Source: Candidatus Schekmanbacteria bacterium RIFCSPLOWO2_02_FULL_38_14 (GTDB lineage Bacteria; Schekmanbacteria; GWA2-38-11). From it: 64,000 nt of DNA. The notes beneath the pieces are model-generated. The model was given only the letters and a program-made list of their open reading frames with translations, ran no database searches and was not told the DNA's origin. A program made the position numbers and the translations under genes. Where the stretch lies: NCBI GenBank assembly GCA_001790855.1, contig MGDH01000011.1:124001-188000 (forward strand), read 5' to 3'. Positions 56,773-57,234 of this stretch are shown here, piece after piece. How positions within the stretch are numbered: the first letter of the stretch is position 1; each line of letters begins with the position of its first letter.

Positions 56773-56964
56773 ATGGTCAAATGGAGCAAATTTCTCCTTA
56801 TCATAGGGTTCATAAGTCTGGCAATAGGCATGCTTAAAGGATTTCTGATTCATCCCTTTGTGGATATCCAATGGTTCACTCCCAAGACATATCTTTACTT
56901 TTCCAATACTGCTGCATTCTTTGCAATAGCATTGATGCTGTTGGAAATCCTCAAAAAAAAATAG
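56773..56964 (+). CDS. Small two-helix membrane protein of unknown function
   Basis: The 63-residue protein has two hydrophobic helices (about 5-28 and 40-60) separated by HPFVDIQWFTPKTY, and ends with KKK. AAAAGGAG precedes the ATG, and TTGACA at 56722-56727 with TTAATA 17 bases later is a fair promoter, so I regard it as a real gene. No named family is recognised. It is transcribed alone, just after tRNA-Phe. Confidence 0.75.
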   Translation: MVKWSKFLLIIGFISLAIGMLKGFLIHPFVDIQWFTPKTYLYFSNTAAFFAIALMLLEILKKK

Positions 56965-57040: not shown

Positions 57041-57088
57041 TTGACATATTTTTTCTGATAGAATATATGAATATGTATTCATATATTC
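57041..57088 (+). promoter_or_regulatory. Promoter with ArsR/SmtB-type 12-2-12 operator before the CydDC-like genes
   Basis: TTGACA (57041-57046) is followed after 12 bases by TAGAAT (57059-57064). A perfect inverted repeat with 13-base arms, GAATATATGAATA (57061-57073) and TATTCATATATTC (57076-57088), with a two-base centre, overlaps that -10 box. The core TGAA-N6-TTCA with flanking ATAT has the size and spacing of the 12-2-12 operators bound by ArsR/SmtB-family repressors. A bound dimer would occlude the promoter. No ArsR-family gene is in the window. Confidence 0.6.
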
Positions 57089-57181
57089 ATATATTTAATA
57101 ATCTTTAAAATTCAAATGATAGTTAAAAAATTTACAATATCTTCATATTTTGTTCATACTTTTAAAAAAATTAGTTCTTAC

Positions 57182-57207
57182 TATAATATGAACATCTATT
57201 CTGATAT
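57182..57207 (+). promoter_or_regulatory. Second -10 box and degenerate ArsR-type site
   Basis: TATAAT (57182-57187) lacks a good -35 partner. It abuts ATATGAACATCTATTCTGAT (57186-57205), an imperfect dyad with TGAA-N6-TTCT, the same spacing as the perfect site 118 bases upstream. It lies about 30 bases before the ATG of the first ABC gene. It may be a second operator copy; its symmetry is poor, so confidence is limited. Confidence 0.4.
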
Positions 57208-57234
57208 TAAATTCCTAAAATGAGGTAAAAAGTT

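Follow-up and report, generated by a model that had tools for sequence, protein, structure and literature searches.

A conserved ArsR/SmtB-type operator predicted at both a metal pump operon and a cydDC-like exporter operon in Candidatus Schekmanbacteria

The operators of ArsR/SmtB repressors follow a 12-2-12 rule (PMC8790569); this and the other papers are cited here from excerpts of their text. CydDC, whose substrate has long been debated, for decades, between thiols, heme, and cystine reduction, is now described as a heme transporter, and H85 of CydC and H312 of CydD are the axial heme ligands of the E. coli protein (PMC10374445, PMC13337084). In Bacillus subtilis, the loss of cydABCD results in Zn sensitivity, Zn intoxication relieves the repression of the Rex regulon, and efflux-deficient cells overloaded with Zn accumulate heme and suffer its toxicity, an effect hitherto explained by mis-regulated synthesis (PMC5189952). 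Among the excerpts from literature on CydDC with ArsR, SmtB, zinc, cadmium or metalloregulator, no report of ArsR control of cydDC was found, and those of PMC7598926 and PMC6495748 held nothing bearing on CydDC and metals. A CydDC-like pair under a metal sensor and apart from cytochrome bd would offer a natural test of the transporter's own function.

The window analyzed here is a stretch of 64 kb (C11:124001-188000) in a 2.68-Mb assembly that is 99.4% complete (G000). A preliminary description of this DNA had proposed a perfect dyad with 13-base arms over the -10 box of a cydDC-like operon, and such a dyad was confirmed (O1, GAATATATGAATA-TG-TATTCATATATTC), with 13-base arms that are 100% complementary and a 2-base center. 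The sequence TTGACA, followed by a 17-base spacer and TATATG, indicates that the dyad covers the putative -10 box. As in the 12-2-12 rule, O1 is thus a perfect inverted repeat overlapping a -10 box, the latter located by eye. The consensus promoter scan did not list the cydDC promoter because its -10 box lacks the final T. O1 was the only perfect inverted repeat in the window with arms of at least 10 bases and a loop no longer than 6; when the entire window was shuffled with its dinucleotides preserved, 1 of 20 shuffles contained an arm of at least 13 bases, and therefore the dyad by itself is unusual, not overwhelming. The 300 nt upstream of cydD are 78% AT. A reading of the dyad as a hairpin or terminator was dropped; no terminator-like site was detected, and no Rfam family except the upstream tRNA. 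Between the tRNA gene and the cydDC promoter lies a 63-aa hydrophobic reading frame (56773-56964, plus strand) with a ribosome-binding-like AGGAG, for which no family match above the cut-off was obtained.

Coordinates of the features at the cydDC-like operon (positions in the 64-kb window)
Feature	Position	Strand	Remarks
Putative -35 box TTGACA of the cydDC promoter	57041-57046	+	By eye
Operator O1, ArsR/SmtB-type (predicted)	57061-57088	.	Perfect 13-2-13 inverted repeat; 12-2-12 core 57062-57087
Putative -10 box TATATG	57064-57069	+	By eye; 17-nt spacer from -35; within dyad
Degenerate operator copy O2	57183-57208	.	13.6 bits; 20-mer 57186-57205; center 39 nt before ATG
cydD-like ABC exporter subunit, 583 aa	57235-58986	+	Best family TIGR02857, 383.3 bits
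cydC-like ABC exporter subunit, 579 aa	59036-60775	+	TIGR02868, 339.9 bits

The degenerate copy that had been proposed ahead of the ATG was also present. The 20-mer of O2 (ATATGAACATCTATTCTGAT) lies 121 bases downstream of the first copy and ends 29 bases before the ATG; it carries 2 mismatches to the pattern, and O2 is 83% identical to O1 over 23 nt. Pattern matches with up to 3 mismatches numbered 3 in the window against 0.24 expected, a count reached in none of 100 shuffles. A second copy was not seen at cydD in the relatives and the matrix score of O2 is below that of false positives met elsewhere; this copy may be a chance occurrence.

The genome encodes three ArsR proteins with the HTH_5 domain (PF01022), to which PF12840 added none. 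One of them is SmtB/CadC-like and is encoded on a contig other than that of the window (C35:4907-5266, minus strand), directly followed by the gene of an 895-aa heavy-metal P-type ATPase with three HMA domains, nearest to the ZntA models. This ArsR protein scored over the NF033788 cut-off (96 versus 55 bits), and its closest PDB relatives were SmtB and CzrA. Its alignment with the counterparts from four relatives revealed the motif ELCVCD, with CxC (CVC) in four of the five proteins and D-x-H and a C-terminal H in all five; the CxC and D-x-H...H residues presumably represent the alpha3N and alpha5 metal sites. An operator-like site with 3 mismatches (C35:5281-5300) was located immediately before the probable arsR start codon, so that both a candidate cognate repressor gene and a further copy of the dyad were found, in operon with a ZntA/CadA-type ATPase. 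The promoters of the other two arsR genes were without the site (best scores, -6.2 and 5.8 bits). The arsR-cadA pair with its site also occurs in G001, G002, and G003 (two sites in G003), whereas in G060 the site lies ahead of cadA and arsR behind it. The preliminary description had left the choice between a metal- and a thiol-sensing ArsR; the metal-sensing part was supported by the SmtB/CadC-like repressor, and a BigR-type thiol/sulfide sensor was rejected, the score being 40.5 bits against the NF040642 cut-off of 155. Because the BigR score is far under its cut-off, the probable signal is Zn, Cd, or Pb. A small cysteine-rich protein (CLQCGKCC) is encoded upstream of arsR-cadA in four genomes (L020:5620-5943, L084:6437-6739, L090:4947-5273, and L092:171-485), and its G000 copy had no Pfam or NCBIfam match.

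The relatives were delimited with CydD. The closest named one, Candidatus Schekmanbacteria bacterium GWA2_38_11, has a CydD of 82% identity, and in a search of 60 genomes cydD orthologues of at least 69% identity were restricted to G000, G001 (70% complete), G002, and G003 (97% complete). L033 of genome G061 was counted once with G001 because the site coordinates are identical in both. A fifth orthologue (L034) came from G060, a genome recorded as Deltaproteobacteria bacterium, and groups with G003 in the tree described below. The plasmid search with CydD gave just distant ABC proteins, with less than 60% identity among the 5000 matches listed.

A matrix of 26 columns was built from six arsR/cadA sites of five genomes, with the cydD sites excluded. 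The training sites themselves scored 21.5-29.5 bits in leave-one-out scoring. The best match of the matrix in the window was O1 with 26.9 bits, followed by an overlapping shifted register (16.7), O2 (13.6), and the next match (12.8). In the cydDC loci of G001, G003, and G002, the top match was the site preceding cydD (21.5, 17.6, and 20.5 bits, respectively; runners-up, 7.1, 6.8, and 12.5 bits). The lowest number of mismatches to the pattern within 300 nt upstream of cydD was 0 in G000 and G002, 1 in G003, and 3 in G001, and an equal match arose within 300 nt in none of 3000 shuffles for the first three and in 16 for G001. All four site-bearing cydD promoters possess TTGAC[A/G] 17-20 nt ahead of the 20-mer. 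The dyad is thus conserved upstream of the cydD orthologues in four of five genomes. The exception is L034 (G060), where the best match upstream of cydD had 6 mismatches and at most 5.5 bits, with the site retained at cadA; because both L034 subunits cluster with those of G003 (SH-aLRT 96), the absence in G060 looks like a loss that took place inside the group.

On the scale of whole genomes, the loose pattern (up to 3 mismatches) was mildly enriched in G000, with 18 sites versus 12 for the reversed control; the corresponding counts were 9 versus 4 in G001, 20 versus 7 in G002, and 20 versus 6 in G003. The inspection of the G000 sites covered 12 of the 18, three of them inside the window and nine elsewhere; the others are on C9, C10, C18, C26, C36, and C41. 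Matches that fell within genes, in L091 (fliG-like) and L026, were treated as false positives, and these reached 20.7 bits (L091) and also 16.3 bits. Because of this mild enrichment and these false positives, the argument rests on position and conservation. Site C4:15218 (1 mismatch) was set aside, as it falls in the coding sequence of a sigma-factor gene in G000; sites lettered like it occur in G001 (C151) and G003 (C247).

Extra sites were noted in G003 before feoB, a DUF169 gene, and the gene of an exported protein. The feoB site (L087:4624-4643; G003:C151) had 2 mismatches and 18.0 bits, and the feoB promoter region also has a TTGAGATTGACTCTCAA dyad. The site at L085:2425-2444 (G003:C241; 1 mismatch, 24.4 bits) precedes a gene whose product, exported and possibly located in the outer membrane, matched no family; this gene is a possible further regulon member. 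In L073 (G003:C237), a second dyad, TGAGAATGATTCTCA, lies directly 3' of the ArsR-type site before cydD; we take it to be Fur-box-like, and cydDC in G003 may respond to iron too.

The kinship of the exporter was judged from family models, a tree, and heme-pocket residues. The CydC-like subunit scored over the cut-off of its family (329.05); the CydD-like subunit scored under that of its own (435), yet CydD was its best-scoring family, and no CydD match was returned at E 1e-130. In a quickly built 32-row tree (no bootstrap, no Atm1, outside ABC rows from two of five loci, and the CydC partners from L122 and L126, truncated at the locus ends, excluded), the five first-gene products were sister to CydD and the five second-gene products sister to CydC (SH-aLRT 98 each), and both fell apart from MsbA and MdlAB. 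The axial heme ligands CydC H85 and CydD H312 are kept in all five orthologues and are absent from MsbA, MdlA, and MdlB. Other heme-pocket residues are changed (R81 to Q, R136 to H, H132 to V, and CydD F247 to L or I). The preliminary description had named a CydDC-like exporter of cysteine and glutathione; the tree and the heme ligands uphold the CydDC kinship, and CydDC is described as a heme transporter, rather than solely as a thiol exporter, in the excerpts cited above.

The same description had noted a lack of cydAB, which held for cydB, absent from all five genomes, and only in part for cydA. Of the four genomes searched for it, G000 and G002 encode a CydA-like protein, and G001 and G003 gave no match; that of G000 (L132:4002-5378; G000:C36) is divergent and has a C-terminal cytochrome c domain. 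It adjoins a 387-aa membrane protein (L132:2692-3855; G000:C36), with which it may form an unusual bd-like complex in a CydB-free genome. Coproporphyrinogen oxidase is present in G000, and ferrochelatase matches, weak and in unusually long frames, exceeded the cut-off in three of the five genomes.

In summary, the comparison of sequences supports a conserved, predicted ArsR/SmtB-type operator common to the metal pump operon and the cydDC-like operon, an arrangement which suggests that a toxic build-up of metal switches the exporter on. The SmtB/CadC-like repressor encoded on C35 would recognize O1 as its operator. Under metal sufficiency, the repressor dimer would occupy the -10 region and keep cydDC off; in excess Zn(II), Cd(II), or Pb(II), the metal-bound repressor would let go, and cydDC would be transcribed alongside the arsR-cadA/zntA operon. 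We consider it very probable that cydDC is derepressed with CadA at Zn, Cd, or Pb excess, the binding, the direction of the response, and the metal being inferred. Of the metal, polysulfide, or redox stress proposed earlier, Zn, Cd, or Pb would accordingly be the favored signal, and the sulfide branch lost ground with the low BigR score. The exporter, in turn, may clear heme or mis-metallated porphyrin from the membrane or the cytoplasm. Heme or porphyrin export is favored because both axial heme ligands are kept and metal intoxication leads to heme toxicity in Bacillus subtilis, with which the induction by metal of an exporter for heme or metalloporphyrin would agree; nevertheless, heme or metalloporphyrin as the substrate is a tentative assignment. 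The changed heme-pocket residues, the CydD score under its cut-off, the weak ferrochelatase matches, and the cydD locus of G060 without a site weigh against the reading as a whole. Taken as a whole, operator recognition by the C35 ArsR and derepression together with cadA, with heme or porphyrin export as the weaker component, is the best explanation and a likely one. A broader proposal, rather speculative at present, is that a Zn/Cd/Pb-sensing repressor directly induces a CydDC-type heme/porphyrin exporter together with a metal pump, heme export being an arm of metal resistance without cytochrome bd. If true, it would provide a direct genetic link from metal excess to heme export.

Two alternatives keep the regulation and change the cargo. 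The exporter could move cysteine or glutathione to bind metals or to repair periplasmic thiols, in line with the older view, cited in PMC10374445, that E. coli CydDC exports L-cysteine and glutathione, and with the proposal that exported glutathione buffers periplasmic copper (PMC7558416, PMC10304878). However, heme behaved as a substrate in an ATPase assay and the tested reductants did not (PMC10374445), and the retention of H85 and H312 also argues against thiol export, which we regard as possible though doubtful. The pair might instead act like the AtmA/Atm1-type ABC exporters and directly export metal complexes such as metal-thiolate. Its apparent co-regulation with a metal pump and the role in nickel tolerance of the CydD-related AtmA of Cupriavidus metallidurans (PMC10304878) are consistent with this, whereas the tree, in which Atm1 was not included, sets the subunits by CydD and CydC, away from MsbA/MdlAB; direct export of metal complexes is therefore unlikely.

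The remaining alternatives concern the dyad itself. Since AT-rich palindromes arise easily and two more ArsR proteins exist in the genome, the dyad might serve another regulator and resemble the arsR/cadA sites by coincidence. The independent matrix test, the same arrangement in four genomes, and the promoters of the two remaining arsR genes, which are without the site, render this very improbable. That the dyad is a functionless AT-rich palindrome is hardly credible: the AT content of the upstream region and the arm length reached in one shuffled window would allow it, but position and sequence are conserved in four of the five orthologues.

Derepression of cydDC with cadA, the preferred reading, can be compared with four described systems. 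Like the Bacillus subtilis cydABCD genes, the locus appears to be linked to metal; those genes are under Rex (NADH) control and serve cytochrome bd, whereas here the operator is of the metal type and cydB is absent. AtmA, in an excerpt of PMC10304878, is likewise an ABC exporter related to CydD, although its subfamily is probably different. With E. coli CydDC (PDB 7ZD5 and others), the pair shares the adjacent cydD-cydC genes, the sister placement in the tree, H85/H312, and a CydC over the cut-off; it differs in its identity of only 26-29%, in R81Q, R136H, H132V, and F247L/I, in a CydD under the cut-off, and in its metal-type operator in a genome without cydB. Similar to the SmtB, ZiaR, AztR, CzrA, and CadC regulons, the system comprises a 12-2-12 promoter site, an arsR-cadA/zntA operon sharing that site, and a repressor with CxC and D-x-H...H; unlike them, it also includes a CydDC-like ABC exporter. 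Judged by sequence, it would belong to the known SmtB/CadC regulon type, with the CydDC-like exporter as its apparently new member.
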